Of a stretch of DNA of 60,006 bases, positions 35,194 to 53,056 are shown in pieces; position 1 is the first letter of the stretch; each line of letters starts with the position of its first letter. A program made the position numbers and the translations under genes. This DNA is from Bdellovibrio sp. (GTDB lineage: Bacteria > Bdellovibrionota > Bacteriovoracia > Bacteriovoracales > Bacteriovoracaceae), in assembly GCA_016187935.1 (NCBI GenBank), contig JACPIU010000041.1:1-60006 (forward strand), read 5' to 3'. The notes under the pieces are model-generated. The model was not told where the DNA came from, made no database searches, and was given only the letters and a program-made list of their open reading frames with translations.

Positions 35194-35682
35194 TTACGGT
35201 GCATCCCATGGAGGGGTAGGGGGCACAGGACTGGAAGAAAAGTTTTTCCAATGACAAACCGTGCATAACCTACCCTTGTAAACAGGCGTCTTGTAGTTAT
35301 AACGGAACAATTTATTCATGTTTGAACTATGCGGATTATGGCAAGAGATGCAATTGAAAGGCCTGTTTGGATACAGGGGATCTGTATCAAGCGAGGTTGG
35401 GTGCCCGACAGCAGGGTGATTAACTTCCGAAACATCATGGCACATCAGACAAAGTTCATTGGGTTGAGTGATTAAATTGTGATCCACAGCTGTTGGGCTA
35501 TCAAAATCTGCATGAGGGACGTGGCAAAAAGTACACAGTTCTTTCGCCGGAGGATGAACAACCGCGCGTGAGATATTGTTTTCGTGGCATTCGAAACAAA
35601 ATTCCGGCCTATATTCTTCCGCATTTATTCTAAGAGTAAAAAGGCCGCCGAATAAGACGGCAAGTAAAATATTAGTTTTCAT
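35194..35682 (-). CDS. Pentaheme c-type cytochrome
   Basis: The 162-residue product has a signal peptide (ends near INAE) and five CXXCH motifs: CFECH, CTFCH, CLMCH, CISCH and CTVCH, at intervals typical of doubled-CXXCH (c3/NrfB-like) modules. Histidines in VHPPAKE, VPHADF, AVGHP and NPHSSN can serve as distal ligands, so all hemes may be bis-His. The start overlaps the triheme cytochrome gene by 11 bases and has its own GGAG. It is the last gene of a four-gene minus-strand operon (tetraheme, NHL, triheme, pentaheme). A role in moving electrons across the periplasm or cell surface is inferred. Confidence 0.9.
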   Translation of the reverse strand: MKTNILLAVLFGGLFTLRINAEEYRPEFCFECHENNISRAVVHPPAKELCTFCHVPHADFDSPTAVDHNLITQPNELCLMCHDVSEVNHPAVGHPTSLDTDPLYPNRPFNCISCHNPHSSNMNKLFRYNYKTPVYKGRLCTVCHWKNFSSSPVPPTPPWDAP

Positions 35683-36151
35683 TTTTCACTCCATAGTTAT
35701 CTATTAGTAAATGATTGTTCTCGGTTCTGTGAACATCATGGCATTGAGCACACCTTCGGTAATCGTTTTGGGATTGGTCATTGATTCCAATGATAATAGA
35801 CCCCCCTAGGCCACCTTTCTCAAGAGATTTGAAATTCACAAGCGTTTTGGGAGTGGGAGTAGCGATCGAAGGTGGATGGGTGACCATCGGTTCTCCTGGT
35901 TTATGATCATCATGACATTGCAAGCATAAGCGTGTGATTGTTTCTCTTGCCTCTCCCTGAGCACCACTTCCAGCATCTTCGCTTGCTTCTAAACTAAAGA
36001 AAATCTTAGAGTGACAAACTTCGCAAATCTTGCCGTTTGACCAAGTTTCTCGTGAGAAATCATGCTTGCTGTTTCTCATTGCGGCGTTGGTTTCGAGAAT
36101 TAGGAACATTGCGGTGATTAGAGTTAGAGACAGTTTATAATATTTCTTCAT
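35672..36151 (-). CDS. Triheme c-type cytochrome
   Basis: A 159-residue protein with a signal peptide ending near TNAA and three heme motifs, CEVCH, CLQCH and CAQCH. The N-terminal SKHDFSRETWSNGKICEVCH resembles the start of the tetraheme proteins at 37268 and 47912 (KHDF then C-x-V-C-H), so it looks like a reduced relative. It has a GAGG box ahead of the ATG. The spacing between motifs 2 and 3 is filled by a Gly/Ser-rich linker (about residues 100-125). It is placed between the NHL and pentaheme genes in the same operon. Confidence 0.88.
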   Translation of the reverse strand: MKKYYKLSLTLITAMFLILETNAAMRNSKHDFSRETWSNGKICEVCHSKIFFSLEASEDAGSGAQGEARETITRLCLQCHDDHKPGEPMVTHPPSIATPTPKTLVNFKSLEKGGLGGSIIIGINDQSQNDYRRCAQCHDVHRTENNHLLIDNYGVKNEN

Positions 36152-36169
36152 ATGTTACCTCTACGGATT

Positions 36170-37255
36170 TCAGTTTTTAAGAAATCCGTATACGTTCACT
36201 TTGTTTTCGCCAAACGTGCTGCTTACAAAAATCAAATATTCGATCTCATGCCCTTTCGCCACATACTTGTTAAAATACTCAACATTGTCATAATCTATAA
36301 CAATTTGAGCAGGCATATTTATTCCGCCGCGAACATTTCCAACATCACCAAAGAAGAGAAGAAGTTGTTTTTCAGCATTGAAAATTTGAATGTTTTCAAA
36401 GCTGCCATCCACAACGTAGATTCGCCCTTCTCGATCAATGGCAAGACCTTTTGGGCGCGCAAAATTGCCAGTATTGATGCCTACTTCGCCCAAGGTATCA
36501 AGAAATTTTCCATCATTTGAAAACTTGGAAATGCGGCCATTGAAAGTGTCAGTAACGTAAATATTCCTTTGTCCGTCGAGTGCTAAACTGGTTGGCGCAT
36601 AAATTTTTCCGGGGGCCGCGCCCGGAGAACTGATGCGACCCAATTCTTTGCCACTATTCTTGTTCAAGATAACCACTTGGTGAGCGGCCATATCGGTGAG
36701 AAAGACGCGATCCTCAGAAATGGTAATGCCTACTGGTTTCGTGGAACCATTGCCATAAGACCATCGATATTGATTATCCGGACTATACACCATGATTTTT
36801 TTATAATCACCATCGGTTACAAACCTTGTTCCATCGTCAGCAATCGCAATGTTGAGAGGCCGTTTCAGACCCTTCATCACGTCAACTCTGTTATGAGCAA
36901 GATCAAAAACCATCACTTGTTGTTTCGCTGTATCACAAATAAAAATTTGCCCTCTTGTGACGGCCATACCATAGGGTTTTATCAGCGGATTGATGTCTTG
37001 TGTCCCATCTGTTCCTGTGTAACCGGGAAATCGATCACCATAGGTGGAGTTGTTTGTATCCATAAAGCTTGCGCCATTAATGGTTTTCAGGAATTGGATA
37101 CGAGGTTTTTCAGGTGTGCTTGGATAAAAAAGGGGCGCTAGACCTGCTTCGTTTGTCGTTGGGCGAGCGGCATAGGCATTACCCATGTAAGATGAAAAAA
37201 CTGCAATAGCTGCAAAGACTAGACTGATGAGTAAGATATTTTTCTTTGCTTTCAT
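36170..37255 (-). CDS. Exported NHL-repeat beta-propeller protein (copy A)
   Basis: A 361-residue protein with a signal peptide (ends near YAA) and about six repeats of the NHL type, such as PYGMAVTRGQIFICDT, PTSLALDGQRNIYVTDTF and PKGLAIDREGRIYVVDGS. The N-terminus has PRIQFLKTINGASF and the C-terminus EYLIFVSSTFGENKVNVYGF, both shared with the proteins at 48624 and 50397. A GAGGAAA box precedes the ATG, 12 bases after the tetraheme gene. Beta-propellers next to cytochrome genes are known from Geobacter nanowire loci; this one may act as an assembly or binding factor for its neighbour cytochrome. Confidence 0.9.
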   Translation of the reverse strand: MKAKKNILLISLVFAAIAVFSSYMGNAYAARPTTNEAGLAPLFYPSTPEKPRIQFLKTINGASFMDTNNSTYGDRFPGYTGTDGTQDINPLIKPYGMAVTRGQIFICDTAKQQVMVFDLAHNRVDVMKGLKRPLNIAIADDGTRFVTDGDYKKIMVYSPDNQYRWSYGNGSTKPVGITISEDRVFLTDMAAHQVVILNKNSGKELGRISSPGAAPGKIYAPTSLALDGQRNIYVTDTFNGRISKFSNDGKFLDTLGEVGINTGNFARPKGLAIDREGRIYVVDGSFENIQIFNAEKQLLLFFGDVGNVRGGINMPAQIVIDYDNVEYFNKYVAKGHEIEYLIFVSSTFGENKVNVYGFLKN

Positions 37256-37267
37256 CTCGCTTTCCTC

Positions 37268-37903
37268 TCACATATCGTGACAAGCCAGGCATAGCGCGCT
37301 GCCGCTGTCATTTATTTTTAGCAGCTCATTATTGTCATATCTATTGTGCACATCGTGACAAGATGAGCACTCGAGTCGACCTCCTACAAGAAGATCGCTT
37401 GCGATCGTGCCACCGAGAACAGTGGGCTGAATTGTGGGATCGAACAAGGCGCCATCGGCAACGGCCAAGGCGGAATCGTACACGAAAGAAACAGGATGAT
37501 GATCTCTCAAATCAGTTCCAATATTGTCCACAATATGTGTTCCCAGTCTTCCGCCAAAAGAATCAGCGGCGACTGTGCCGTCATGACAGCTCAAGCAGAG
37601 TTTTGAAACTCCCGTCGGTTGTCCCACGGATGCATTGAGTGTTGAGCTGGAATAAGGTGTAAATGTCGCAGTTGTTACGGCGTGGTTCCACAAGGGAGAA
37701 TTGGGAATAGTAGTGTTGGCATTGTGAGGAGTGTGGCAAACTTTACAGATATTGCCATCGCCCCACCCCGTAGCGGTAAAATCATGGGCCGAACCTGCAA
37801 TATCGGCGATGCCATCTGGTGATAAAAAAATCAGGTGAAAAAATATGACAGAACAAGCTGCTTGGACGATTTTGTTGTAAATATTATTGACGACAAAATT
37901 CAT
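37268..37903 (-). CDS. OmcE-like tetraheme c-type cytochrome (copy A)
   Basis: A 211-residue protein with a signal sequence (hydrophobic to about residue 30) and four heme motifs: CKVCHTPHN, CLSCHDG, CSSCHDVHN and CLACH. AHDFTATG, LWNHAV, VGQPTGVSKLCLSC and DHHPVSFVYDSALA are shared with the proteins at 47912 and 49728. The pattern C-x-x-C-H-T-P-H ... L-C-L-S-C-H-D-G ... H-P-x-S-F is that of OmcE-type tetraheme cytochromes that polymerise into filaments in Geobacter, by my recollection of the family. It is the first gene of the minus-strand operon and is followed 12 bases later by the NHL protein. Confidence 0.88.
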   Translation of the reverse strand: MNFVVNNIYNKIVQAACSVIFFHLIFLSPDGIADIAGSAHDFTATGWGDGNICKVCHTPHNANTTIPNSPLWNHAVTTATFTPYSSSTLNASVGQPTGVSKLCLSCHDGTVAADSFGGRLGTHIVDNIGTDLRDHHPVSFVYDSALAVADGALFDPTIQPTVLGGTIASDLLVGGRLECSSCHDVHNRYDNNELLKINDSGSALCLACHDM

Positions 37904-38217
37904 TTAAACATCACTGTTGATTCATAATATGTTCATACGCATTTCGAATTTAACCTGTACGCCTAAACTGATATTGCCGTCAATATTCACGAAAAGATTT
38001 GTAGAGAAGAGATTCCTAAAGAGTATTAGGAATATTTGTTATATCGCTTAATATTTAAGCTGATAATTGTTAGTTCGTTCCTACATAAAATCATAATTTT
38101 ATTTCATTACAGAGTTAATTGACTTTGAAGGTGTACTGCGGGAATTTCTCCGGCAAAGTTTGGATTTAAATGAATGAAGAAAATTGCCAGCAACCTTCAC
38201 TTCTAAAGGGGTTTTTT
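37904..38217. other. Intergenic region between divergent cytochrome and secreted-protein operons
   Basis: These 314 bases should hold promoters for both directions. I see one short hairpin, ATTCCTAA (38013-38020) with TTAGGAAT (38027-38034), and an AAAGGGG ribosome binding site at the right end (about 38205). No convincing -35/-10 pair and no riboswitch-like structure could be picked out by eye. Confidence 0.5.
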
Positions 38218-38760
38218 ATGAAAAGGAAAAAGAATTTAAGCTTCATACTTTGTCTTCTCTTGGGAATCACCATGAGTTCATCAGTATTGGCCGATTCTGA
38301 TGAGTACGGAGAAGGCACTCCAGGTGCGGAGGGAACCCAAAAGTTTTGGGAAGCCAAGGCCAAGAAAGATCAGGGAAACATAGCTTGCAAAAAAAATCTT
38401 TGCAAAATTTTCTCTGTCACTGTGAATGGACATAAATTCACAGTTTCTGCCAACCTGGGCGATAACTATGGAACCAACGGCGGCGGAACAGGCACAAGCT
38501 ATAACGCCTATTACGGTACAGATGGATCGGGTGGCGGGACAGGACGACAAGGTTACGGTGTTGGAGTCGAATGGGAGTACACTCATTGTACCAAAACCAT
38601 GAACGTGGATGAATCTGTCTATCGTGCCATTACCACATATATGAAAGCGTTGGTAAACCCTGACGGGACAACCAATCCCGCTTTTACTCCGGCGGAACAG
38701 ACCATCATTCTATTTTACACAACTGTCATGCAATTAGTGAAAGGTGCTGCCTGTAGTTAG
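38218..38760 (+). CDS. Secreted Gly-rich protein of unknown function
   Basis: The ATG at 38218 after AAAGGGG gives 180 residues with a signal peptide cleaved near VLAD. A lysine/cysteine segment (CKKNLCKIFSVTVNGHKF) is followed by a Gly/Thr/Tyr-rich stretch (about residues 75-120, with GTNGGGTGTSYNAYYG) and a helical C-terminus ending AACS. Small size, Gly/Tyr richness and first place in a secreted-protein operon would suit a structural surface subunit; this is speculation. I recognise no family. Confidence 0.75.
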   Translation: MKRKKNLSFILCLLLGITMSSSVLADSDEYGEGTPGAEGTQKFWEAKAKKDQGNIACKKNLCKIFSVTVNGHKFTVSANLGDNYGTNGGGTGTSYNAYYGTDGSGGGTGRQGYGVGVEWEYTHCTKTMNVDESVYRAITTYMKALVNPDGTTNPAFTPAEQTIILFYTTVMQLVKGAACS

Positions 38761-38785
38761 TCCCACGGTTTACCTGGGGGAATTT

Positions 38786-41338
38786 GTGAAGTTTTGGTCC
38801 TGTTTGGTTATTTCCATAATATGTTTGGCGGCCAATAACTGCCAAGAGGCCTTTGGGATTGACTTCAATATGGCGCCATTGGAATTTTCCAATCGTGCGG
38901 CCTGTGCGCATTTATCCACCAAACCTACTCGTTCCGTTTTGCTTTTTATTGACGCCTTTAATGCCGGGAAGGCCGGTCATGCCCGTGGACTACAAAGCAA
39001 AATTGATCCTGCGTCCTTATCCAAAGAGTCAGTGAAACTGTTTCGTATTTGGACGACTCAGTTGGCGGTAGAAATTGCTGATAAAATATCCAAAGGGGAA
39101 TTACCGCTACTGCCGGTTGAGGAAAACGGTCGTTGGGCACAATACTTTGCCGCAACAAAGTCCTGCTTGGATCATAAAAGACAGCTTTCCTGTCCGGCCA
39201 TGAATGATTTTTTGTCGGATGTATGGTCACGATCTCATATGGCCAAACCTGTTTGGGGTGATCTTGGTATCAGTAAGGAAATCGATTTTTATCCAACAAG
39301 CATCAAACCGAGCATTGGTTGTCATATTGTTAAAAAATTTTCGGCCTTTCATTCTCATTTGCAAAGTCAGCGAGTTGATAATGGTGTCCTTACCAACATT
39401 GGTGTTGATTCCATGACTCCAGAACAATCACTCGACTCCTGTTTTGCCTACGATAAAAACGATACGGATAGTCGATTTACCACTGTCCAATTGGATATGG
39501 CCGACATTGCTTATGAAAAGGAATGGGACAAAATTGGTTTCCGCTTTTGGCAGACCTTTAAACTTTTTTTGTCATGGGGCTGGAGATATGCTCCAGAGTA
39601 TCAGAAGGAATTCGGTGAATTTCGCCAGGCCTTTGCTTCTTTAGCCTTTGAAGATTCAGTCATGTTAGTTCCCAATGGTTGTAGAAGTGTGGAAAAACCG
39701 CAATGTAACGATCAAGGGTTGGGTGTCGATGCGATGAGGGCCGCTAGATTCTTGGGGCAAACACACGCTGCCGTAATGGAGGTTCCCGCCAAGCCGATCG
39801 ATATTCTTTTTCAGGGGACTGTACGAAACGTTAACAACGATGAACTTGAACTTTTGAAAGCTGAAAATGCCGATGCCTGGTATCGTGATTTCAAGGCAAA
39901 ATTATCCGGCATTCGCTCGGAAATGATCAACAAGCTCACCACGGGAATGACAAAGCTTCAGATTATTACTTATCTCTTAAAACAGGAACAGCTGAGTAGT
40001 GATATCCAACAACTTTTGGATCAACCTAAATTAGATGCGAATGAAATCTATCTGACGTGCTTGGAATATAATTTGGCCAAAAATGATCTCTTCGACGATA
40101 TCCATCAGGAAATTCGCAATATTGGAAGTACCAATGAATTAGATAGTCTCCTAAAAACCAATATCTCCAAGTCCGTGCCAGATTACATTAAATATTATGA
40201 GGCCTTAACAGAAACTATGGTCAATTTTTGCAAAACATTGGAGACTCGTGGAGTGCTGGTTAATAAGAAGCCAGACATTCTCAAATCATTGAATCGTTGG
40301 GCCTATTTTATCATGCGTCCGAAAGAACGTGATGCCTATGATTATCAATGCACTAAAACTCCTGAAAATATTTCCTGTCCTCTGAACTCATCAAAGCGTT
40401 ATCTTGTCAGCGCAAATTTTCAATCAAACCCTGGGAGTGGAAGCGGGACAAGTAATGGCAGTGGTTCGGATCTGGCCACTGTTCCTAACGATATAGTCAT
40501 TTGTAAAACATCTTTGGAATGTGCGCGAATCATCTTAGATAGTTTGGTTTCAGTCATCTCTGTTCGGCGATATGCTCAGGCCTTTCTTCCTCTCAAAGAT
40601 ACTATTCAAAATCCGGATTTATTTAATACCTATAGTATGCCGGTTGCGTGCAAATTGTATGACCCATGGTTAAAGCAAAGAAATGCCTGGAAATTATTTT
40701 TGGCCGACCTTGGTTCATCAGTTCTCTATGGTATTACTTGTGGTGCGTTTTCAGTGCGTTTGGTAAAACCGGGTGGTAATGCCGTTCTTTCATTTCGCGA
40801 ACTCTACCAAAACAATACGGTAGAATACGATCCACGAATGACCCGTGAGCGTGCGCAAATTGAGTTTGCCTCCAATCTAGGCTTCTTGTTTGGCATTCCG
40901 TGCAGTGTTTCTCTTGGCAATTATGTGGGCGGTGGGAATTTAAATTATTTTAACGGTTTGTCATTAGGCAGTTGCTATAACCACAGCAATACCACTTATC
41001 AAATTGATCCAAACGGCAGTAGACCTGATATTTCGAACATCAGTTCACGTGCTTATAAGGCCTGCTTCCGCTGCGGCTTTGACCCTCTCAATGTCGCCAG
41101 TTTTGCATGCCAGAGTAACTGGATAACCAGAGTCATTGGAGTCGGAGTTGGAATTTTTCAAGGTGTTTTGCGCTTAGTTTCTAACTTGAGAGACCCAAAC
41201 GATATTCCGCGAATGACTCCGGTGAATATTAATGAAATTTCTGCAATTTTTGAGAATAACGGAAAAATTCCAAAATTTTGCCACTTCAATATCAAACATG
41301 GTTTTTCCTGTCGTAAATCGCGCAGTAGAACACCCTAG
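38786..41338 (+). CDS. Large secreted cysteine-rich protein of unknown function
   Basis: The GTG at 38786 with GGGGG at the right distance gives 850 residues starting with a signal peptide (VKFWSCLVISIICLA, then ANNC). Over 20 cysteines are spread along the mature chain. A Gly/Ser linker (NPGSGSGTSNGSGSD) at about residues 560-580 divides a helical N-terminal part from a C-terminal part containing CFRCGFDPLN and a final SRSRTP. I recognise no domain. It follows the Gly-rich gene by 25 bases and is 9 bases ahead of a lipoprotein gene, inside a seven- or eight-gene operon. Confidence 0.8.
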   Translation: MKFWSCLVISIICLAANNCQEAFGIDFNMAPLEFSNRAACAHLSTKPTRSVLLFIDAFNAGKAGHARGLQSKIDPASLSKESVKLFRIWTTQLAVEIADKISKGELPLLPVEENGRWAQYFAATKSCLDHKRQLSCPAMNDFLSDVWSRSHMAKPVWGDLGISKEIDFYPTSIKPSIGCHIVKKFSAFHSHLQSQRVDNGVLTNIGVDSMTPEQSLDSCFAYDKNDTDSRFTTVQLDMADIAYEKEWDKIGFRFWQTFKLFLSWGWRYAPEYQKEFGEFRQAFASLAFEDSVMLVPNGCRSVEKPQCNDQGLGVDAMRAARFLGQTHAAVMEVPAKPIDILFQGTVRNVNNDELELLKAENADAWYRDFKAKLSGIRSEMINKLTTGMTKLQIITYLLKQEQLSSDIQQLLDQPKLDANEIYLTCLEYNLAKNDLFDDIHQEIRNIGSTNELDSLLKTNISKSVPDYIKYYEALTETMVNFCKTLETRGVLVNKKPDILKSLNRWAYFIMRPKERDAYDYQCTKTPENISCPLNSSKRYLVSANFQSNPGSGSGTSNGSGSDLATVPNDIVICKTSLECARIILDSLVSVISVRRYAQAFLPLKDTIQNPDLFNTYSMPVACKLYDPWLKQRNAWKLFLADLGSSVLYGITCGAFSVRLVKPGGNAVLSFRELYQNNTVEYDPRMTRERAQIEFASNLGFLFGIPCSVSLGNYVGGGNLNYFNGLSLGSCYNHSNTTYQIDPNGSRPDISNISSRAYKACFRCGFDPLNVASFACQSNWITRVIGVGVGIFQGVLRLVSNLRDPNDIPRMTPVNINEISAIFENNGKIPKFCHFNIKHGFSCRKSRSRTP

Positions 41339-41347
41339 GAATGGTGA

Positions 41348-42784
41348 ATGATACAGGTTTTTAGAAACCATATTCTTATCATTTTACTGGCAATCGCTGG
41401 TTGCAAAGAGTCTGGCATATCGACTGTTCCAAGCAATGATCCAACAGGTGATACCATTCTCGAAAATTCAAATCCCATAGGTTCTAATGTCGGGATTACG
41501 AGCACTGACCCAATGTCGACTGATGCTAATGATGATGCAGAAGGATCGGGATCAAGTGATTCATCGTCATCATCTGGGGACGGTGATTCAAGCACTGTAA
41601 CGCCATTTAAATTTTGGACTAATCAACACAACCAGTCGTTTGTGCAATTTCAATGTGTCGAGGCAACTTCATCGTCAAATCTATGCGGACAAGTCAAAGA
41701 AATAGGCCTTTGTTTAAATTGTGTTGGGGCGAAATCGCCGGAAATGACCGATCTTTTCAACAACATTGGCGAAGAAATCATGTCCTGCCCTGAGCATGAA
41801 TTTCCTGCAGATTTTAGCAGCAAACTTTTTTTCGGTGGTGAATTAATTCCGGTTACCGCGGTTTCTCAATACAACCCGAACAAATTGCAAGATGCAGCGC
41901 TGGTGTCAAAATTTGTTGGGCTATGCCCTTATGCCTCAGAAGAACCCATCGTCTTGGGGATTGTGGATAAACTGACGAGAGTTATTAACCGAGTGCCCTT
42001 AGTACTTTGTGGAGATAAAATCTACCCCCTTACTGGTTCAACCATAAGCTGTGAAGAAAGTGCAAAAGAGGTATTGACCTTTATTGAAAAAAACATTGAG
42101 GAGAAAAACAACATTCAAGAAAAATATAATAAAATATTAGAGGCGCCAGAACTTATCGATCTCGACTACAATGTTGTCACACTTTCCGATTTCCTTGAAG
42201 GACAATATATCCGTTGTGGCAAGGATTCGGCGGCCATCTGTCAAAAGATTTGCAATTCAAAATTATCTTGCGTTCTACCTTTGGATATGGAGAAAAATCT
42301 AAAATCTATTTTATCTTTTGATACTTCGAAATTCAAAGTTTGTGACGGCCGGGAAATTAAATTCGAGACGCTGATTTCACTCATTCAAGGCAGTGGTACT
42401 TTTGTTTTTTCCCATCGTTCTTTGAATATGCAATATGAAGGAATTCCCAATACTGATGACTTCCATGATTTTTCAACCATCAACGGAATTTTGAATGACT
42501 TTAGGGGTATTTTCCATACGGATAGGGATTGGAAGGAAGAAGAATATCGAACTTTCCTTTTTTCGCCTGCCTATCGTAATAAAGTTAAAGCAAAATTGGA
42601 TGCTTTTTGTAACCCATCAGAAACCGCTTATATCATGGGACGTGATGGTCGTGGGGAATTGGCCCTCTGTCAATCAGATTCGGACTTGCGGGTTTTGGTG
42701 CTGGCCTTTAACGGTGAAGATTGTCAAGTCGCTGGAAATCAGCTAGGGGCATTTGGTCCGATCGTTGAAAGGACTGGGCATTAG
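41348..42784 (+). CDS. Lipoprotein with Ser/Asp linker, unknown function
   Basis: A 478-residue protein whose N-terminus has a lipobox, LLAIAGC with C19, so it should be lipid-anchored. After the anchor comes an acidic and Ser-rich spacer (about residues 25-80, DANDDAEGSGSSDSSSSSGD) and then a globular domain with about 18 cysteines (for example ICQKICNSKLSC). Such a long spacer suits a surface-exposed outer membrane lipoprotein. No family recognised. Spacing to both neighbours is 9 bases. Confidence 0.8.
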   Translation: MIQVFRNHILIILLAIAGCKESGISTVPSNDPTGDTILENSNPIGSNVGITSTDPMSTDANDDAEGSGSSDSSSSSGDGDSSTVTPFKFWTNQHNQSFVQFQCVEATSSSNLCGQVKEIGLCLNCVGAKSPEMTDLFNNIGEEIMSCPEHEFPADFSSKLFFGGELIPVTAVSQYNPNKLQDAALVSKFVGLCPYASEEPIVLGIVDKLTRVINRVPLVLCGDKIYPLTGSTISCEESAKEVLTFIEKNIEEKNNIQEKYNKILEAPELIDLDYNVVTLSDFLEGQYIRCGKDSAAICQKICNSKLSCVLPLDMEKNLKSILSFDTSKFKVCDGREIKFETLISLIQGSGTFVFSHRSLNMQYEGIPNTDDFHDFSTINGILNDFRGIFHTDRDWKEEEYRTFLFSPAYRNKVKAKLDAFCNPSETAYIMGRDGRGELALCQSDSDLRVLVLAFNGEDCQVAGNQLGAFGPIVERTGH

Positions 42785-42793
42785 GAGTATGAG

Positions 42794-43915
42794 ATGAAAA
42801 ATATATTGTTTATACTAGTAATCTTATCACCCATGTTGATCAGCTTTAATTACGGCATTCAACAAAGTCAGAAAGTTGTTAAATTGGAGTTTTACAACCA
42901 AATCGATGGCCGTGTAATTATCCAGAATATTGATAAAATGTTATCCGATTCACAATCAAACCAAATAATTTTGGCCGACAGTTTAGCGCCAACTGATGTC
43001 TATGATCCTTCTTCCAAAGATAAATCGCTCTTCAAACGAAACCCAAAATTTTTTACCGATACTGCAAGCTTTAATCCTGAATTGAAAGCACTTTGGAACA
43101 ATACTATCATGGTCTTTGGTGCTACCGCCGATGGTATCGGTGTTGGAACGGCATTTTCTATTGCGAAACTCGATGAACATACGGCGCTTTTTTTAACCGC
43201 CTATCATGTTGTTGAAAAATTCTGCGACATTCCTAATAGGCCTTACTCTGAGCAGACAACGCTTGAAGATAATTCTTTTTCATGTCAGTCACTCTATGCC
43301 CTTAATGACATTGCTATTGACACAAAAAGCAATCAAGTGGCCAATGATGGCGAGCATGCTTGGAAGTCAGAAATTGAAGAAGTATTGTTTTTTGATAAGG
43401 TTAGTGACGTTGCCGCTTTTAGAATTCGAATTCCAGATGATAATAAGTTAACCATGGCAAAAGTTGAGTCGAATTACGAAGTCGATAAACCCAAGTTTAA
43501 TGATATTAATGATGAACTCCGGCCATTGAGCAAGTTTGATCTCTATACGTTTGGTTACCCTTCAACTTATAAAAAAGTGGATAAAGTACCTGTTCACGAT
43601 CCCGGTCTCATTCGTAAACGTTGGTCAAGAGGTCAGTACCTTCGAACCAAAACTTTTGAATCCCAGTCAAAGCTTGGCCTTACTCATGCTTTAAAGCATG
43701 GCGTATATAGCTTACCAGGCTCTTCTGGTGGTCCCATGGCGCTTCCCGATGGACGTGTCATTGGAATCAATTTTTCAATGATCCTGAATCAATATTATAG
43801 GCATAGATTTGGGGGATGTGCTCGTTTAGCGAAGGTTACTGAAAAAGAATTGTATGCCATTGCTACCGTCAATTTTAAACAGTTTCTAACATTGATACCT
43901 GGAGATATAAGATGA
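42794..43915 (+). CDS. Exported trypsin-like serine protease
   Basis: A 373-residue protein with an N-terminal signal or anchor segment (about residues 3-18). The S1 triad is visible: His in LTAYHVVEKFC (about residue 138), Asp in SDVAAFRI (about 205) and Ser in LPGSSGGPMALPDG (about 311). It therefore resembles the trypsin-like_2 group used for limited cleavage of exported proteins. Within an operon of secreted orphans it could process one of them. An AGGAG box lies before the ATG, and the last bases overlap the next gene by 4 (ATGA). Confidence 0.85.
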   Translation: MKNILFILVILSPMLISFNYGIQQSQKVVKLEFYNQIDGRVIIQNIDKMLSDSQSNQIILADSLAPTDVYDPSSKDKSLFKRNPKFFTDTASFNPELKALWNNTIMVFGATADGIGVGTAFSIAKLDEHTALFLTAYHVVEKFCDIPNRPYSEQTTLEDNSFSCQSLYALNDIAIDTKSNQVANDGEHAWKSEIEEVLFFDKVSDVAAFRIRIPDDNKLTMAKVESNYEVDKPKFNDINDELRPLSKFDLYTFGYPSTYKKVDKVPVHDPGLIRKRWSRGQYLRTKTFESQSKLGLTHALKHGVYSLPGSSGGPMALPDGRVIGINFSMILNQYYRHRFGGCARLAKVTEKELYAIATVNFKQFLTLIPGDIR

Positions 43916-44808
43916 AACACTTAATTTGTGCCTCGGTGCTATCGTGTCTTGTTAGTGTCAACGCCTATGCCTTACTTTCGAATAGTGTGACGGTGGGAGT
44001 GCGGAGTTCATCAAACTATTTATACCCTTGTAACGCTGGGATTGCTGAAAATACGCAAAGCATTGCCAGGGGAGTTGATTATTTACATGGGGCGTGGGTA
44101 CCCTCAGAACATACTCCTTCAGCTATGGCAGGTGAGGGTAATGCGGTCGGTGGAGACACCAGCGGAAATATTCCAGATCCTGACTATGCCGTGTTGTCTA
44201 CCTTACTCACAGACGGCACTCTTTTATATCGAAACTATAACCAGTTGTTGCCAGAAGATACCATGTATAATTATGTTATCGGCTCAAACCCTTACGCCAC
44301 CGCCGCAAAACTCATGATCAATCTGGCGTCCGATACCTATAATGCCGCTTATTTTATTACTTTTTGTTTTAAACCATCAAAAAATGGAAGCGACCCTGGC
44401 CTGGCACAAGAGTTGGCCTTTGTGAGCGGTCGAGTGACCCATTCTGCGGTTGTTGGAAATACATACAATTATGCCGAGCAATCTGGGCTCAAGACCATGT
44501 TGGATATCAAATGCAGCAAAGTGAGTGGGGGAGTTGTTCAGTTTTATACTCCAGGTGGTTCAACCAGTATTGATGTGCTTCTGACTCCTTTTGCTGCTGA
44601 TACCACTGTTCAACTTGTGCCAATGGGGGGGATCGCCATTAATACTGCTGATTACCGCATCTATGGTGGAACCTTTACTGAGGGCACATTGCCGGACGAG
44701 TGTCGTGCGCGATTTCACTTTATTGAGACTTCCGGCACACTCCGTCCCCACACTTTATCTTCATCAGATATTCAAATTGATGTCGATGCAACTGTGCGTG
44801 CTTTGTGA
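43912..44808 (+). CDS. Secreted orphan protein, paralogue of the next gene
   Basis: A 298-residue product with a signal peptide ending near VNAYA. The mature part is rich in beta-prone and Gly/Asn/Thr residues, with a few cysteines (YPCNAG, ITFCF, IKCSK, DECRARF). The end, CRARFHFIETSGTLRPH, resembles the end of the protein at 44817 (CIIRFTFREENFTVRRPH), and YNAAYFITFCF resembles YYSTEYYWDYCYVW, so the two appear to be tandem paralogues. A beta-sandwich surface subunit is conceivable. The start overlaps the protease stop by 4 bases. No known family. Confidence 0.75.
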   Translation: MKHLICASVLSCLVSVNAYALLSNSVTVGVRSSSNYLYPCNAGIAENTQSIARGVDYLHGAWVPSEHTPSAMAGEGNAVGGDTSGNIPDPDYAVLSTLLTDGTLLYRNYNQLLPEDTMYNYVIGSNPYATAAKLMINLASDTYNAAYFITFCFKPSKNGSDPGLAQELAFVSGRVTHSAVVGNTYNYAEQSGLKTMLDIKCSKVSGGVVQFYTPGGSTSIDVLLTPFAADTTVQLVPMGGIAINTADYRIYGGTFTEGTLPDECRARFHFIETSGTLRPHTLSSSDIQIDVDATVRAL

Positions 44809-44816
44809 GGCAGATT

Positions 44817-45461
44817 ATGAATGTCAAATTATTTGCTTCCCTTGGTTTTGTTTTAGCCCTTTGGTTTGCAATAATTGGCAATGCCAAGGCCCAGGGCTAC
44901 ACCCATTCATTGTTTCTCTGTGACCTTGGGCTCCAGTCTTTGAATGGCTCCAACGATTTGGGAGTGAACTTTGTGACTTATGATCAGCTTGGGGTGAGTA
45001 GAAGTCTTGAGGCCATAAGCTCCATGCAGAAGGCCTCTCAAAAAGTACCAGAAGGAACTGACTTATGGGTGGAAACAAATCAGATCAGCAATGTCCTTTT
45101 TAATTTGGAATCTGATTATTACAGCACTGAATATTACTGGGATTACTGCTACGTTTGGAATCGTGAACAACTAAATGAAACATTGTTTTCCATTAACATC
45201 AACGTGGCAACCCCTCCTGAAATGGACAATACTCTGATTGCCTTTCAAACTGAGTGCACTGGTCGAAGTATTCTCAACACTCTTATTACTCAAACCTCGG
45301 TGAACACGAATAATACCATATGGAGTATGCCAAGCAATCAAGTGGAGTTGAAATGTATAATCCGTTTCACTTTTAGAGAAGAGAATTTTACGGTGCGTAG
45401 ACCGCATCAGACGAGGTTGGACAATTTAACCTCTCAAATCGGAATTGCGGTAGACCCGTAA
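44817..45461 (+). CDS. Secreted orphan protein, paralogue of the preceding gene
   Basis: The ATG at 44817, with GAGG 5 bases before it, is preferred to a GTG 12 bases earlier; it gives 214 residues with a signal peptide cleaved after AKA. It shares with the protein at 43912 a central aromatic motif ending in a Cys and a C-terminal C-x-x-R-F-x-F ... R-P-H pattern. It is shorter and has more aromatic and Asn residues. Function unknown. Spacing to the next gene is 10 bases. Confidence 0.75.
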   Translation: MNVKLFASLGFVLALWFAIIGNAKAQGYTHSLFLCDLGLQSLNGSNDLGVNFVTYDQLGVSRSLEAISSMQKASQKVPEGTDLWVETNQISNVLFNLESDYYSTEYYWDYCYVWNREQLNETLFSININVATPPEMDNTLIAFQTECTGRSILNTLITQTSVNTNNTIWSMPSNQVELKCIIRFTFREENFTVRRPHQTRLDNLTSQIGIAVDP

Positions 45462-45471
45462 AGGATTTATT

Positions 45472-47028
45472 ATGAGCTCGAATAAATATATCCCATTGAT
45501 CATGATTTTTTGCAGCTCGTATTTTGCTAATGTATGGGCCTGTACCGCCATACCTAATACTCTCATCAATCTCATATCTTCCTATGAATCAGAGCGACAA
45601 GAGTATGTTGGAAAAAAGCAAGAGTTTGAATTTGGCAATTGCCTCCACCATATCGATGAATATTTTATTATTACCAGCGGGCCGGTTTTTACCGATATGA
45701 ATTTTCGTGCCATAAGTTCGCCTGAAGGTGTTTTGCCACAGGATAAGTGTTATTTGGACAACAGTCCTTTTGCGGTGAAGTCTCCTTTAGAAGCAGGTTT
45801 TGATAAAATGTATAGTGACCAGGCAAAATTGATGAAAAAGTGTCTGGAGTTTGAAATTACCGATGAGAATGGGCTGAATTGGGATAAGCAAGCGGACTGT
45901 CAGCTTACTCGGATGAGTGCAAAAAAGGCGCAGGGTAAGGGAAGTCACTGTTCCTTTAAAATAAGCAAGGAAAGTCGCTTTGTCTTAAAATATCGCTTAA
46001 ACCCTCACTGTACTTTAAAAAGCTTTATGGATGAGAATGACGAGATTTACCCCATGGATATTAATGGGCTTGTTAGTGTTTACCGTGCCGTTGACATGAC
46101 GCCTGGGAATCCTGATTACGCTCTGCTTGGTTTTATTAATACGAAAATCAGCATTCAGCCCGATTCTAAGTTGCAACAAGTTTCAACCTATTTTGGGAGT
46201 GAAACTGCTCGCTGGTCTACGGAGTACGGTGCAAAAATAGCTTTAGGTCAGGTGGCAATGACCACCAAAAGAGGTGATAGCACTTCGAACTATGCAATTA
46301 AAATACCTTTTGTCGTGGATAATAACTGCTCCAAGGTTTGTGTTGAAAAGACCTGTACCAGTCCTTGCTACTACAATGTCCCTGCCGTTGCGGCAATCTC
46401 TTTGAAAAAAAAGGACCCTGCAACTGATAAGTATCGTTTTATAGATTGGTGGTATCAAGGCAATATCGCTCCCGCGGGCTTTCTTGGTCTCATGTCCTTT
46501 GGGCGTGACATAAAATTGGATGAGCCGAAAGTGGGAGATCGTTATCTTGTTCATGCTGAATTTTCTGAACCTTCTTTGGCCTATCGGATGCTCAAGGACC
46601 GCGCCAGTCAGATTGTATTAGATACCAGAAGACGTCTATCGATCTCAACCACATCAGGTGCCACAACATTGCGAGAGTTGGATTCTTTGACTGGGAATAT
46701 GGTACCGGCTGCCGATTTTGAGGGATTGCCTCCCGTCAGTGATGAAAATTCTTTGCGAGGGGTCCAATCCACATTGACGCAGCTTGAGAACTTGATTGGT
46801 GTTAATGAAACCTGGCCCCCATACTATCGAAAGGTATGCAATAATGATGGGGTATGTGACAGCGCGCATGGCACGTTTCAGATTATCGAGATTGAATTTA
46901 CTATTGCGGGAATATCGAGTTCGGGAAAAGTTACTTATAAGGATATGGCCATGAGTCGAAAGTCCAAAATTTTTGGAGACGAACAACGAGCGATTAAGAC
47001 CTGGCCCACGATAAAATGTGGCCGTTAG
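45472..47028 (+). CDS. Secreted cysteine-containing orphan protein
   Basis: A 518-residue product with a signal peptide (ends near NVWA) followed by a mature start CTAIPNTLINLI. About 17 cysteines occur, many in pairs such as CSKVCVEKTCTSPC and CNNDGVC, pointing to disulfides and an extracytoplasmic location. A beta-rich C-terminal half includes FTIAGISSSGKVTYKDM. I recognise no domain. It is followed after 27 bases by a tetraheme cytochrome gene, which suggests joint function with electron-transfer proteins. Confidence 0.78.
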   Translation: MSSNKYIPLIMIFCSSYFANVWACTAIPNTLINLISSYESERQEYVGKKQEFEFGNCLHHIDEYFIITSGPVFTDMNFRAISSPEGVLPQDKCYLDNSPFAVKSPLEAGFDKMYSDQAKLMKKCLEFEITDENGLNWDKQADCQLTRMSAKKAQGKGSHCSFKISKESRFVLKYRLNPHCTLKSFMDENDEIYPMDINGLVSVYRAVDMTPGNPDYALLGFINTKISIQPDSKLQQVSTYFGSETARWSTEYGAKIALGQVAMTTKRGDSTSNYAIKIPFVVDNNCSKVCVEKTCTSPCYYNVPAVAAISLKKKDPATDKYRFIDWWYQGNIAPAGFLGLMSFGRDIKLDEPKVGDRYLVHAEFSEPSLAYRMLKDRASQIVLDTRRRLSISTTSGATTLRELDSLTGNMVPAADFEGLPPVSDENSLRGVQSTLTQLENLIGVNETWPPYYRKVCNNDGVCDSAHGTFQIIEIEFTIAGISSSGKVTYKDMAMSRKSKIFGDEQRAIKTWPTIKCGR

Positions 47029-47055
47029 GGCATGGATTTGGTGAGGAGTGTTGCT

Positions 47056-47598
47056 ATGAGAAAATTATTATCTGCTGTTTTTTCTCTCGGTTTCATGAGT
47101 AGTGTTTTTGCCACTCCCAGTGTCCAGACTGCCTTTGTGAAGGCCTATCCAGCGGCTAAAAATACAGCTTTGGATAATTGCAGTACCTGTCACATGCCCG
47201 TCATTTCTGATTCCCTGAATCGCTATGGGTACGAGCTTGTCTTCTCGCCTATGGGGTTTAAAGAAATTGAAAATTTAGATTCTGATTTTGATGGTGTAAA
47301 TAATATTGATGAAATCAATGCACTGAAGAATCCTGGTTCTCGCTCTGATGACCCTGAATATTTTGTATTTACTAACAGAAAAGGCAGGGTTGATTTTGAT
47401 CACGAATCTCATATTTTGGGGCCCAATTATCTTTCTAACGGGAAGTGTGCAAATTGCCATGGCACGGGAAAATTCACGCGCGAGTACAATGATGCTGTTT
47501 TGGTTAAGCAGTTTGCCCATCAGATCTGTTGGCGTTGCCATAAACTCTCAAACAGTGAGAATGCTCCAAGAGAATGCTCCGATTGCCATATGAAATAA
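47056..47598 (+). CDS. c7-like tetraheme cytochrome with calcium-loop motif
   Basis: The ATG at 47056 follows GAGGAG and gives 180 residues with a signal peptide ending near VFA. It has four heme motifs: CSTCH in an N-terminal module and CANCH, CWRCH and CSDCH in a C-terminal c7-like module (with FDHESHILG giving distal histidines). Between them lies DSDFDGVNNIDEI, a 12-residue D-x-D-x-D-G loop like EF-hand or thrombospondin type-3 repeats, so calcium binding is likely. It ends the operon of secreted proteins. Confidence 0.87.
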   Translation: MRKLLSAVFSLGFMSSVFATPSVQTAFVKAYPAAKNTALDNCSTCHMPVISDSLNRYGYELVFSPMGFKEIENLDSDFDGVNNIDEINALKNPGSRSDDPEYFVFTNRKGRVDFDHESHILGPNYLSNGKCANCHGTGKFTREYNDAVLVKQFAHQICWRCHKLSNSENAPRECSDCHMK

Positions 47599-47911
47599 TT
47601 TCTGAAAATTCTCCAAACAGAAATCTGCGGAAATACTTTTCTGATATTTCACAGGAAATTGTATTTGAAAGTTTAAGTTTTTATCAGCGCAAAATCATAC
47701 GGAAAAGTTAAGTAATCAGCTTGGAGGAATGCGCAATTTTGTATATCTTTCGTGAAAATTGCAGATGAGCGAAAACGGTTTATGAATGGATTCATCCAAA
47801 TGGTGGTTTCAGAAGGAAGCTACTTAAGATTGGAGCTGTTTTATCTCTAAAATGCTGAGTGTGATTAATAAAAAGTTCTAGGTCCCGTAACACTTGAAAG
47901 GAGAATGACTT
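47599..47911. other. Intergenic region before the second tetraheme/NHL arm
   Basis: These 313 bases carry no open frame I believe in. A palindromic stretch at 47782-47798 combines ATGAATGGATTCAT and TGGATTCATCCA and could be an operator for the downstream cytochrome operon. I looked for a GEMM-type cyclic-dinucleotide riboswitch, which controls some cytochrome genes in other bacteria, and did not find its conserved elements. A GAAAGGAGAA ribosome binding site is at the right end. Confidence 0.4.
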
Positions 47912-48583
47912 ATGAAACGACTGTTAACCCCCAAGAAAAGCCTGGCCCTGTGCGCGGCCATCTTCTTATTGTGTGTGAGTGTAGCCGCTCTCGCAGACAT
48001 TGAAGGAAGCAAGCACGACTTTACTTTTGCGGCCAACGAGTGCGAGGTATGCCACACTCCACACAGAGCTTATACCGCTGCGGCCCCATTGTGGCGCCAT
48101 CACGATCCCGCTCTTGATGTAACGGTGTATGAACAGTATCAGAGTGTTGATGTTCGCGGTACTTTGGAAGGAACTGTTGGACAACCGAACGGAATTTCTA
48201 AGCTTTGCTTGAACTGCCACAATGGTATTACTGGCCCTGCCGGTATGACTCAGATTTTGGGAACTGATTTGAAAAATGATCACCCTATTTCTTTTACTTT
48301 TGATTCAACACTGGCGACCGCTGATGGTTACCTCTATGACCCTGCCACCCATCCATCAGGCGTTACTCCCGATGGAACACTTGCTACAGACCTTCTGAGA
48401 GGCCCATTGAATGACCAGCTTGAGTGTGTTTCTTGCCACGAAGTTCACAACAGATACAACAACTTTAAAATGTTGGTTCTCCCTGGCAAAGCCAATGCAG
48501 GAGATGGTCAACCTTACGATGCTGCCCCTCAAACATTGTGCAAAGCATGTCACATGTTAGGAACAGGCGTATCAACTCATTAA
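47912..48583 (+). CDS. OmcE-like tetraheme c-type cytochrome (copy B)
   Basis: A 223-residue protein with a signal peptide ending near ALAD. Heme motifs: CEVCHTPH, CLNCHNG, CVSCHEVHN and CKACH. SKHDFTFA, PLWRHH, VGQPNGISKLCLNC and NDHPISFTFDSTLA follow the family pattern shared with copies A and C. The bis-His pattern and small, Gly/Pro-rich body fit polymerising OmcE-type cytochromes. It starts after AAGGAG and is followed 40 bases later by its own NHL gene, repeating the gene order of the minus-strand arm. Confidence 0.9.
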   Translation: MKRLLTPKKSLALCAAIFLLCVSVAALADIEGSKHDFTFAANECEVCHTPHRAYTAAAPLWRHHDPALDVTVYEQYQSVDVRGTLEGTVGQPNGISKLCLNCHNGITGPAGMTQILGTDLKNDHPISFTFDSTLATADGYLYDPATHPSGVTPDGTLATDLLRGPLNDQLECVSCHEVHNRYNNFKMLVLPGKANAGDGQPYDAAPQTLCKACHMLGTGVSTH

Positions 48584-48623
48584 TTTAGAGTTTTTTAACA
48601 ATTTTTTAGAGGAAGGTAATGTT

Positions 48624-49682
48624 ATGAACGCAATAAAAAAATATATAACCTCAGGATTAGTGATTGCCATGTCACTTATCGCGATTAATGTGGCCTTTGC
48701 GGCAGATGCAAAACACGTTTTTTATCCAAGTGATGTGAAAAATCCACGCATTCAATTTCTAACCGCCATTAATGGCGAAGGATTCTTCAGCAATGGTTCA
48801 AGTTTTGGCAATCGTTTTCCTGGATATAATCCAGATTCACAAAGAGAAAAAGCTCCTTTTGGTCAAACCTATGGACTTGCATCCACTCAAGATGAATTGT
48901 TCATTTGTGATGTCACCAAACAACAAGTTATGATTTTCAATTTCAAAACGAGCACCATTTCAAAGTTCGGCGTCAATCTCTCTAAACCTGTAAGTATTGC
49001 CATTGATAAGGACGGAACTCGTTATATCGTTGATCTCGGAAACATGAAAATCAGTGTTTACGATGCTCAAAACAAATTTGTTCGCACTATGGCCGACGTT
49101 CAAGGATGGTATCCTGTTGCCGCCGCTCTTTTAAATGACTCACTTTATGTGGTTGATTCCAAAAATCATCAAGTGGTTGTGATGAACAAAAATTCTGGAG
49201 CTGTAACAAAAAGAATCGGACAACCTGGTGAAGCAATTGGCGAATTTGCCGCTCCAACAGCTATTACAGTTAGCGATCAGGGCCTGATTTATGTTTCTAA
49301 CACGCACAATGGTCGTGTTGATGTCATCGATGGCAATGGAAAATTTGTAGATAAATACGGTGATTCTCCAAACGTGGCCGCTGGTAGCTTTGCTCGCCCA
49401 AAAGGGATTGCTCTGGATAAAGAAAACAGACTTTATGTCGTTGATAACTCTTTTGAGAATGTTCAAATTTTCAACGATAAGAAACAATTCCTTATGCCGT
49501 TTGGCGAAATTGGAAATGTTAAGGCCGGATTAAATCTGCCCATGACAATTCTGGTTGATTACGACAATGCAAAGTATTTTTCCAAGTACGTTGCCCCAGG
49601 ACATGAGGTTGAATACATCATTTTGGTTGCAAGCCAGACTGGTGCAAACAAGATCAATGTCTTTGGATTTTTGAAACAGTAA
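48624..49682 (+). CDS. Exported NHL-repeat beta-propeller protein (copy B)
   Basis: A 352-residue protein with a signal peptide ending near AFAAD. NHL repeats such as PTAITVSDQGLIYVSNTH and PKGIALDKENRLYVVDNS can be seen; the start shares PRIQFLTAINGEGFF and the end EYIILVASQTGANKINVFGF with copies A and C. AGAGGAAGG precedes the ATG. The first 90 bases of the gene and its leader are almost the same as those of copy C, which points to recent duplication or gene conversion. It is probably exported with the tetraheme cytochrome and may be its structural or assembly partner. Confidence 0.92.
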   Translation: MNAIKKYITSGLVIAMSLIAINVAFAADAKHVFYPSDVKNPRIQFLTAINGEGFFSNGSSFGNRFPGYNPDSQREKAPFGQTYGLASTQDELFICDVTKQQVMIFNFKTSTISKFGVNLSKPVSIAIDKDGTRYIVDLGNMKISVYDAQNKFVRTMADVQGWYPVAAALLNDSLYVVDSKNHQVVVMNKNSGAVTKRIGQPGEAIGEFAAPTAITVSDQGLIYVSNTHNGRVDVIDGNGKFVDKYGDSPNVAAGSFARPKGIALDKENRLYVVDNSFENVQIFNDKKQFLMPFGEIGNVKAGLNLPMTILVDYDNAKYFSKYVAPGHEVEYIILVASQTGANKINVFGFLKQ

Positions 49683-49727
49683 GGGTTAGTTGAGTCTAGT
49701 ACTTGTAAAATTTTTAAGGAGAAAGTT

Positions 49728-50342
49728 ATGAAACGAAAGTACTTAAATACAAATACCAAGCTGGCACTGTTGTGCTCAGCTCTCTTTTTAATGTTTGCAT
49801 CAACGGCGTTTGGTCTGCACTATGACGGTAAATGCCGTAGCTGTCACACTCCACACAATGCTCTTGCTTCAGAAGTTCCATTGTGGGGAAGGGCAGATGC
49901 AGTTATGCCTGCACCTTATGTTCAGTACACCAGCAATACGATCAACGCCACCATGGGAGATCCAAATGGTATCTCTAAGCTTTGTATGGGCTGTCACTAT
50001 AAATCGACAGGCTACGGACTTGGACAAGATATGCGCAATGATCACCCTGTATCCTTCACATATGATGCCGCTTTGGCCGCTGCTGACGGACGCCTCTGGG
50101 ATCCAGAGACCACACCTTCAGGAATTGGTGGAAGCGTGGGCGATGGAACTATCGCTCAAGATATGTTGAGAGGTGTCGATCATAACCAACTCGAATGCGT
50201 TTCCTGTCACGAACCCCATGATAAGTATGGATACGGACGTGGCACTGGCTATTCGGATGATCCCGCCGGTGGCGATGGGTTGGCCTATCTCGTGAAGCTG
50301 AACGATGCTGGCCAGTTGTGTAAAACTTGCCATAGAAAATAG
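49728..50342 (+). CDS. OmcE-like tetraheme c-type cytochrome (copy C)
   Basis: A 204-residue protein with a signal peptide ending near AFG. Heme motifs: CRSCHTPHN, CMGCH, CVSCHEPHD and CKTCH. It lacks the N-terminal KHDF block of copies A and B and starts HYDGKCRSCH. MGDPNGISKLC and NDHPVSFTYDAALAAADG are conserved. A Gly-rich insert (about residues 165-185) precedes the last heme motif. It is placed between the two plus-strand NHL genes, 45 bases after the first and 54 before the second. Confidence 0.9.
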   Translation: MKRKYLNTNTKLALLCSALFLMFASTAFGLHYDGKCRSCHTPHNALASEVPLWGRADAVMPAPYVQYTSNTINATMGDPNGISKLCMGCHYKSTGYGLGQDMRNDHPVSFTYDAALAAADGRLWDPETTPSGIGGSVGDGTIAQDMLRGVDHNQLECVSCHEPHDKYGYGRGTGYSDDPAGGDGLAYLVKLNDAGQLCKTCHRK

Positions 50343-50396
50343 GGCGCAATTGATTTAACGAGAGTTTAAACAATTTTTTAAGAGGAAGGTAATGTT

Positions 50397-51464
50397 ATGA
50401 AAGCAATAAAAAGATATCTAACTTCAGGATTAGTGATTGCCATGTCACTGATCACGATTAATTCGGGGCTTGCTGCCAGCAATGCTAAACCTGTTTTCTT
50501 TCCTGATAGCGGTGCACCTGCAAGAATTCAATTCTTAGGCAATATTGATGGAGAAAATTTCTTCAACAATACTAACTCTGCTTATGGAAATCGTTTTCCT
50601 GATTATGTGCCCACCACATCTGTTAAAGATGCCAATCCTTTTTTGAGACCTAGTGCCATTTCAACTTTCAAAGAAGAAGTGTTTGTGTGCGACTTGGGAA
50701 AAAATCAGATTACAATTCTAAATTTCAACACCAAGCAAGTTTCAAAGATCGATTACAAATTTAAGGCACCAGTAAGCATCACCGTTGATGCCGACGGTAC
50801 TCGCTATGTGCTTGATGCTGGCAGCTCAAAAGTTCTCGCATTTAGCGCTCAAAATAAGTTTCTACGTTCTTTCGGCAACGCTGAGGCCTGGAAACCTATT
50901 GATGCTGCTGTCGTAGGTGAATTGATCTATGTTATCGACGGTAAAAAAGACCAAGTTTTGGTATTTAACAAACTCAGTGGTGACTTGGTGAAGAGTTTTG
51001 GTCAAAATGGCGAAAATCAAGGTGAGTTCGATATGGCCGCCTCGATTAAATCCGACAAAAATGGCCTACTCTATATTTCTAACACCATGAATGGTCGAGT
51101 TGACATTTTTAACGGCGATGGAAAATTCCTAGGCCAGTACGGGACAGTTCCTAACACTGCCTCAGGCAATTTTGCTCACCCACAAGGCATTGCTCTTGAT
51201 AGGGAAAACAGAATTTACGTTGTTGATAACTCATTTGAAAACGTTCAAATCTTCAACGATAAGAAGCAATTCCTTATGCCATTTGGCTATGTTGGTAACA
51301 CTGCAGGTGGATTGAACATGCCCTATGCTATTGCCATCGATTATGACAATTCATCGTATTTCTCTAAAATGGTTGCTCCAGGACGCTCCATTGAGTACAT
51401 CATTTTGGTTGCAAACCAAACTGGTGATCACAAGATCAGCGTTTTTGGTTTCTTGAAACAGTAG
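50397..51464 (+). CDS. Exported NHL-repeat beta-propeller protein (copy C)
   Basis: A 355-residue paralogue of the proteins at 36170 and 48624 with a signal peptide ending near GLAAS. ARIQFLGNIDGENFF at the start, NHL repeats such as PQGIALDRENRIYVVDNS, and EYIILVANQTGDHKISVFGF at the end. Its ribosome binding site and signal-peptide coding region are nearly identical in DNA to copy B, while the middle has diverged. A hairpin terminator follows, so this gene ends the plus-strand cytochrome operon. Confidence 0.92.
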   Translation: MKAIKRYLTSGLVIAMSLITINSGLAASNAKPVFFPDSGAPARIQFLGNIDGENFFNNTNSAYGNRFPDYVPTTSVKDANPFLRPSAISTFKEEVFVCDLGKNQITILNFNTKQVSKIDYKFKAPVSITVDADGTRYVLDAGSSKVLAFSAQNKFLRSFGNAEAWKPIDAAVVGELIYVIDGKKDQVLVFNKLSGDLVKSFGQNGENQGEFDMAASIKSDKNGLLYISNTMNGRVDIFNGDGKFLGQYGTVPNTASGNFAHPQGIALDRENRIYVVDNSFENVQIFNDKKQFLMPFGYVGNTAGGLNMPYAIAIDYDNSSYFSKMVAPGRSIEYIILVANQTGDHKISVFGFLKQ

Positions 51465-52585: not shown

Positions 52586-53056
52586 ATGAAGCCAATCAAA
52601 GAACAGAAATTAATCAGAAGTCAGGCCGGGCGAAAATTTGAGTCGCTGAAAGAATTCAGTGAAGGCGTGAAAGGAGTGACTTCTTGGACGAAGTACGTCC
52701 GTTTGGCGCTGGGAATGAGTATCGGCCAACTGGCGGGGCGTTTAGGTCTCTCTCCCAATACCGTGAGCGAAGCAGAAGCACGCGAGATTGAAGGACGGTT
52801 AACCATCAATAAACTCAAAGAAATGGCCAATGCTATGGAATGCGATTTGATTTACGCCTTTGTTCCACGGAAACAGTTAAAAGATCTTGTCTACAAACAG
52901 GCCAAGAAAAAAGTTTTAACAAATATGCAGCATGCCGAAACTCATATGGAGCTAGAGGGCCAAAAAGTTTCGGATCAATGCGAAAGAATTGAGGGCCTGA
53001 TTGAAGAAAAAATGTATTCGAAATATTTGTGGGATAAAAACGGTGATGAAAATTGA
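52586..53056 (+). CDS. Mobile mystery protein A (XRE-type HTH)
   Basis: A 156-residue protein. Residues about 44-64 (MSIGQLAGRLGLSPNTVSEA) form the HTH, followed by TINKLKEMANAMECDLIYAFVPR, the pattern of the mobile mystery protein A family; the C-terminal third is helical and charged. These proteins occur next to a Fic-domain mobile mystery protein B and probably act as regulator or antitoxin-like partner. It has no separate leader, with GAGG right against the ATG, and its end overlaps the Fic gene start by 4 bases. It likely binds the three palindromes upstream. Confidence 0.9.
   Translation: MKPIKEQKLIRSQAGRKFESLKEFSEGVKGVTSWTKYVRLALGMSIGQLAGRLGLSPNTVSEAEAREIEGRLTINKLKEMANAMECDLIYAFVPRKQLKDLVYKQAKKKVLTNMQHAETHMELEGQKVSDQCERIEGLIEEKMYSKYLWDKNGDEN

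Follow-up and report, generated by a model that had tools for sequence, protein, structure and literature searches.

The window analyzed here is a 60,006-nt stretch of DNA from a genome of 4.4 Mb in 48 contigs. It carries three gene pairs, each consisting of a tetraheme cytochrome gene followed by a gene for an exported NHL β-propeller. An ORF call on the window gave all three pairs as intact ORFs within 36170-51464 (Table 1), in agreement with an earlier note on this DNA, which had listed three such pairs in the same gene order. The additional triheme, pentaheme, and c7-like cytochromes reported there were likewise found beside the pairs, based on their CXXCH counts. An apparent minus-strand operon runs from 37903 to 35194 and contains tetraheme A, NHL A, the triheme, and the pentaheme; 12 and 18 bp separate the first three genes, and the last two overlap. 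A second apparent operon, on the plus strand from 47912 to 51464, contains tetraheme B, NHL B, tetraheme C, and NHL C, spaced by 40, 45, and 54 bp, and the c7-like gene lies upstream of it. The two apparent operons are separated by a seven-gene block whose products are exported. A promoter scan was near chance, and a terminator scan was only slightly above chance.

The nearest named relative of the host is Bdellovibrionales bacterium GWA2_49_15, and the gene order of the island is common to both genomes. The host genome is that of a Bdellovibrionota relative, a point that was missed when the earlier note drew its comparison with Geobacter. We rejected contamination as the source of the island because its gene order is common to a Bdellovibrionales genome and because another Bdellovibrionota family also retains the flanking block of exported proteins. 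Genome-wide, OmcE-like genes and NHL genes of this kind number exactly three each, all of them inside the window. Directly downstream of the island, at 52586-53652 on the plus strand, is a gene pair that we named by eye as Xre-like and Fic/DOC-like; this pair is conserved in locus L007 and looks toxin-antitoxin-type.

Table 1. Genes of the island, with positions in the window.
Feature	Position	Strand	Details
Pentaheme cytochrome	35194..35682	-	162 aa, 5 CXXCH; overlaps end of triheme gene
Triheme cytochrome, C-terminally truncated divergent OmcE-family paralogue	35672..36151	-	159 aa; family profile 1.9e-14
Exported NHL six-bladed β-propeller, partner of copy A	36170..37255	-	361 aa; Pfam NHL 4.3e-15
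OmcE-family tetraheme cytochrome, copy A	37268..37903	-	211 aa, Sec-type signal peptide, 4 CXXCH
Seven genes for exported proteins, co-inherited block	38170..47028	+	196, 864, 478, 373 (trypsin-like), 298, 218, 518 aa
c7-like cytochrome	47032..47598	+	188 aa; Pfam Cytochrome_C7 7.6e-9; syntenic in L007
OmcE-family tetraheme cytochrome, copy B	47912..48583	+	223 aa, 4 CXXCH, C-terminal extension ending in His
Exported NHL six-bladed β-propeller, partner of copy B	48624..49682	+	352 aa; Pfam NHL 2.4e-19
OmcE-family tetraheme cytochrome, copy C	49728..50342	+	204 aa, 4 CXXCH
Exported NHL six-bladed β-propeller, partner of copy C	50397..51464	+	355 aa; Pfam NHL 5.1e-13

Relation of the tetraheme cytochromes to OmcE

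We compared the three tetrahemes with solved chains by PDB sequence search. For each copy, the first match was OmcE (7TFS) and the second was 9YUQ, with E-values of 1.4e-21 and 8.8e-15 for copy A, 1.5e-15 and 4e-10 for copy B, and 4.4e-17 and 6.6e-10 for copy C. A family profile built from 26 relatives and run against the solved chains matched OmcE 7TFS at 1.6e-49 and 9YUQ at 9e-46 before dropping to 1.6e-8, a gap of ~37 orders of magnitude. On the same profile, OmcS reached 4e-8, and nothing better than 0.005 was obtained for NrfB, reaction-centre cytochromes, or nitrite reductases. The earlier note had proposed that the tetrahemes are OmcE-like, to be compared with OmcE and OmcS, and had named soluble periplasmic cytochromes as the alternative placement. 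Both the PDB searches and the profile uphold this proposal, as they put OmcE far above other multihemes, and on sequence grounds we assign all three tetrahemes to the OmcE family and not to the soluble periplasmic tetrahemes.

Inspected by eye, the tetraheme translations have a Sec signal peptide and no lipobox. Copies B and C are 51% identical and copies B and A 50% identical, and the orthologue of copy B in a genome of the same genus is 88% identical to it. AlphaFold2 with 26 aligned sequences yielded a poor model of copy A (pLDDT 52), and Foldseek returned no matches with it. When the confident C-terminal part of this weak model was used, 7TFS was the only aligned chain with Z of at least 2 (Z 4.3 over 68 residues).

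The island copies have the same length class, CXXCH order, four distal histidines, and CHTPH and (D)HP blocks as OmcE of Geobacter sulfurreducens, the tetraheme filament of 7TFS. They differ from it in that they are clearly diverged in sequence, exist as three paralogues, belong to another phylum, and are putative filament proteins. The same heme and distal-histidine pattern is found in 9YUQ, a "Putative multiheme cytochrome c" deposited with 16 chains of one sequence, which suggest a filament and are no proof of one by themselves.

Four CXXCH motifs and four distal histidines (KH, CHTPH, (D)HP, and CH-x-x-H) are present in all three copies. Across the 26-row alignment, the heme motifs and distal histidines are invariant, except for the first distal histidine, which is nearly so; in copy C this position reads GLHYD, which the wider alignment places opposite SKHDF. 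Of the sequence blocks described in the earlier note as shared by the tetrahemes, CxxCHTPH and SKLCxxCH do occur in all three, whereas the D-H-P-x-S-F block is matched exactly by two copies and becomes HHPVSF in the other. In OmcE, the distal histidine of one heme comes from the neighbouring subunit (PMC9473688, PMC12307469). Outside the CXXCH motifs, the aligned part of 9YUQ contains only the four conserved histidines and that of OmcE contains those four plus one, which makes it very likely that the trans ligand used by OmcE is among the four.

The triheme ends after its third heme and has neither the last CXXCH nor the CHTPH histidine. Because both were lost together, a partnership between this histidine and the last heme is hinted at. 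We rejected the idea that the two are strict ligand partners, since one relative (L023) has LPP in place of TPH yet keeps its last heme. Copy B carries a short C-terminal extension past the last heme (48557-48583, plus strand), which ends in a histidine and is also present in the same-genus orthologue.

Conservation of the cytochrome-propeller pair

The NHL proteins A, B, and C are 46-56% identical to one another (A versus B, 46%). AlphaFold2 models NHL B with good confidence (pLDDT 87.7) as a propeller of six blades, with an N-terminal strand making the closure. The best Foldseek matches of this model, the NHL domains of Thin and TRIM2, are uninformative on function. No lipobox is found in the NHL partners in the window or in their same-genus copies; most NHL relatives outside Bdellovibrionota have a lipobox-like cysteine, which we treat as a common trait and not as a strict definition.

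All three pairs recur in the same arrangement in a second genome of the genus, and dN/dS between the two species is ~0.08-0.10 for the module genes for which it could be computed. Because of this recurrence and these ratios, we conclude that the pair genes are real and under purifying selection. Copies B and C are sisters both in the cytochrome tree (support 99/98) and in the NHL tree (support 100/99), with A apart in each, indicating that tetraheme and NHL gene were duplicated as a unit to give B and C before the two species split.

Searching named genomes with the NHL protein alone returned 23 loci from several phyla. A cytochrome with at least three hemes was present in the fetched DNA at 20 of these 23 loci, and two of the other three are contigs of less than 4 kb. 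We also counted neighbours in 16 whole genomes from several phyla: an OmcE-family gene is present within 1.5 kb of 33 of the 39 NHL genes and shares the strand in 32 of these cases. This is not an unbiased sample, as 12 of the 16 were picked up by way of the NHL gene. Among 291 Bdellovibrionota genomes, the cytochrome is present in four and strong NHL matches are present in the same four, a co-occurrence with a naive hypergeometric probability of 3.4e-9, for which only three genera are independent. Two NHL matches outside these four genomes are weak, partial, and located in much longer frames. The pairing of cytochrome and propeller is thus conserved across phyla, and both the adjacency counts and the literature (PMC12016550, PMC10734462) back the earlier statement that β-propeller genes accompany OmcE-type loci.

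At the Nitrospirota and Bacteroidota loci, the neighbours of the pair include long exported proteins and larger multiheme cytochromes, and two genomes (G074 and G206) have one NHL gene per two tetrahemes. Since as many as 11-12 matches to the OmcE family occur in single genomes elsewhere, the threefold repeat is not the special feature for which it had been taken. We also observed larger proteins with 7-11 hemes that match the OmcE-family profile and adjoin a second NHL gene (L010, L011, L012, L016, L019, L021, and L026); these are possibly larger surface cytochromes built on an OmcE-like domain.

Additional cytochromes and the exported block

In each of the four Bdellovibrionota genomes with the module, the triheme lies next to it. 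The triheme might cap the filament or act as a docking subunit without polymerising itself, but this is no more than an attractive guess. Decaheme relatives of the pentaheme, with 38-40% identity, lie near the module in G074 and G206. The c7-like cytochrome has one N-terminal and three C-terminal CXXCH motifs.

The seven-gene block, which forms an operon, encodes exported, mostly cysteine-rich proteins that are otherwise unnamed, apart from a trypsin-like member (Pfam Trypsin_2, 2.6e-8). The gene for the 298-aa protein (43912-44808) is found in the same four of 291 genomes as the cytochrome-NHL pair, and the order of the seven genes is kept at L047, L048 (where the last gene is cut by the fetched stretch), and L050, in distant Bdellovibrionota. 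In G206 (L050), the block is on another contig than the cytochromes, and the 19 kb fetched around it contain none. Its co-occurrence with the cytochromes in this genome is therefore not only a matter of close linkage, although the contigs could be neighbours. Because the 864-aa block protein has distant relatives in 61 genomes and because G260 carries a divergent block without the cytochromes, the block also represents a more widespread system of the phylum, and its functional place in the cytochrome module is putative. It is very doubtful whether all of these genes form one larger surface machine, confined to a few Bdellovibrionota, in which three specialised filament-propeller pairs are joined by the triheme as a non-polymerising cap or dock and are built or processed by the seven-gene set.

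A candidate nanowire module and its alternatives

Clusters of OmcE and NHL genes have already been described, in Geoalkalibacter and in the Uet pathway. The multiheme locus of Geoalkalibacter ferrihydriticus encodes an OmcE homologue and two NHL-repeat proteins (PMC12016550). It resembles the island in having an OmcE-family gene beside NHL genes; unlike the island, it also encodes MtoA-like cytochromes and a putative quinol cytochrome. The Uet pathway of Tenderiales and Gallionella comprises an extracellular tetraheme (UetA), NHL-repeat proteins (UetHI), a PPIase (UetB), trihemes (UetDEG), an undecaheme (UetJ), and a porin (UetC) (PMC10734462). The island, too, combines tetraheme and NHL genes with extra small cytochromes, but Pfam searches on most of the neighbours recognized no PPIase or porin, and no undecaheme was recognized, the largest cytochrome in the window having five CXXCH motifs. 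What is new here is the occurrence of such a cluster in an unexpected phylum, Bdellovibrionota. In the open-access literature searched, we found no paper linking Bdellovibrio with extracellular cytochrome nanowires, and a wider literature search on Bdellovibrio, multiheme cytochromes, and extracellular electron transfer gave nothing on the subject by title or abstract. Bdellovibrionota are best known for members that prey on other bacteria. If the filaments exist, some relatives of Bdellovibrio would breathe solid minerals or partner cells.

The island holds a real and conserved candidate nanowire module. We consider it probable that this is an extracellular electron-transfer module based on OmcE-family cytochromes, with a surface polymer and a dedicated NHL partner. 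Such a module suggests that respiratory electrons are moved outside the cell, a direction of flow that we infer. Each tetraheme would leave the cytoplasm by way of Sec, acquire four bis-His c-type hemes in the periplasm, and be taken from there to the cell surface, a location suggested by the neighbours of the pair in other phyla. It may then polymerise head to tail like OmcE, with one heme in each subunit ligated by a distal histidine of the neighbouring subunit, which would give a continuous heme chain. The NHL propeller would serve at the outer membrane as a dedicated partner of the cytochrome, in assembly, capping, anchoring, or mineral contact. The three pairs are old duplicates maintained by selection, which probably yield separate homopolymers for different conditions. 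Their tight pairing and joint duplication offer a testable handle on how cytochrome filaments assemble and anchor at the cell surface.

The tetrahemes could instead belong to the OmcE family by descent but work, on the cell surface or within the periplasm, as monomers or small oligomers that carry electrons to the propeller or between conduits and build no filaments. Polymerisation is argued here from homology alone, the structure model of copy A is poor, and the neighbouring triheme paralogue, truncated before the terminal heme, speaks against a filament in that it indicates that members of the family can lose filament features. However, all eight axial histidines are kept in every copy and across the 26 relatives, and the two nearest solved proteins are the OmcE filament and 9YUQ with its 16 chain copies, so we regard carriers of this kind as unlikely. 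Even for Geobacter, it is contested whether cells need such filaments physiologically (PMC11077965). Co-assembly of the three tetrahemes into a single heteropolymer, which the earlier note had offered beside up to three related filament types, is highly improbable; in such a polymer, every tetraheme would have its own propeller for specific capping or linking. Copies B and C do share one apparent operon in a fixed order and have stood side by side since before the two species split, but the copies are only ~50% identical, A belongs to the other, minus-strand operon, relatives carry anywhere from one to twelve copies, and the known cytochrome filaments are described as homopolymers (PMC11936953).

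A different question is whether the NHL propeller takes part in the filament at all. It might be an independent surface protein, binding mineral particles or acting as an enzyme, that merely shares a regulon with the cytochrome and has no part in assembly. The functions of NHL proteins vary widely, binding of mineral nanocrystals has been suggested for those beside the Geoalkalibacter OmcE homologue (PMC12016550), and a single NHL serves two tetrahemes in G074 and G206. Tight adjacency in several phyla, together with duplication alongside the cytochrome, points instead to a specific partner, and we judge an independent role somewhat unlikely. The reading that we favour, a surface polymer with its dedicated propeller, leaves the electron path incomplete, because family searches of the genome found no NapC/NrfH-type quinol oxidase and no MtrB/PioB porin and because no porin or PPIase was recognized in the cluster. 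We identified no secretion route that would bring the tetrahemes to the surface.

Elsewhere in the same genome, a cluster on another contig (L030, C2:104000-122000) encodes two decahemes, an undecaheme, a heptaheme, a diheme lipoprotein, and an unnamed 418-aa, possibly barrel-forming protein, along with cytochrome c synthesis genes that we named by eye as ResB/CcsA-like. This cluster is a candidate outer-membrane electron conduit. Within the window, two tandem paralogues on the plus strand (12490-13833 and 14140-15399) carry a signal peptide and only one heme motif (CNACH), which is N-terminal, and their long C-terminal part looks barrel-like. They have no Pfam or NCBIfam match, and by eye they resemble the fused cytochrome-porin layout of Cyc2.
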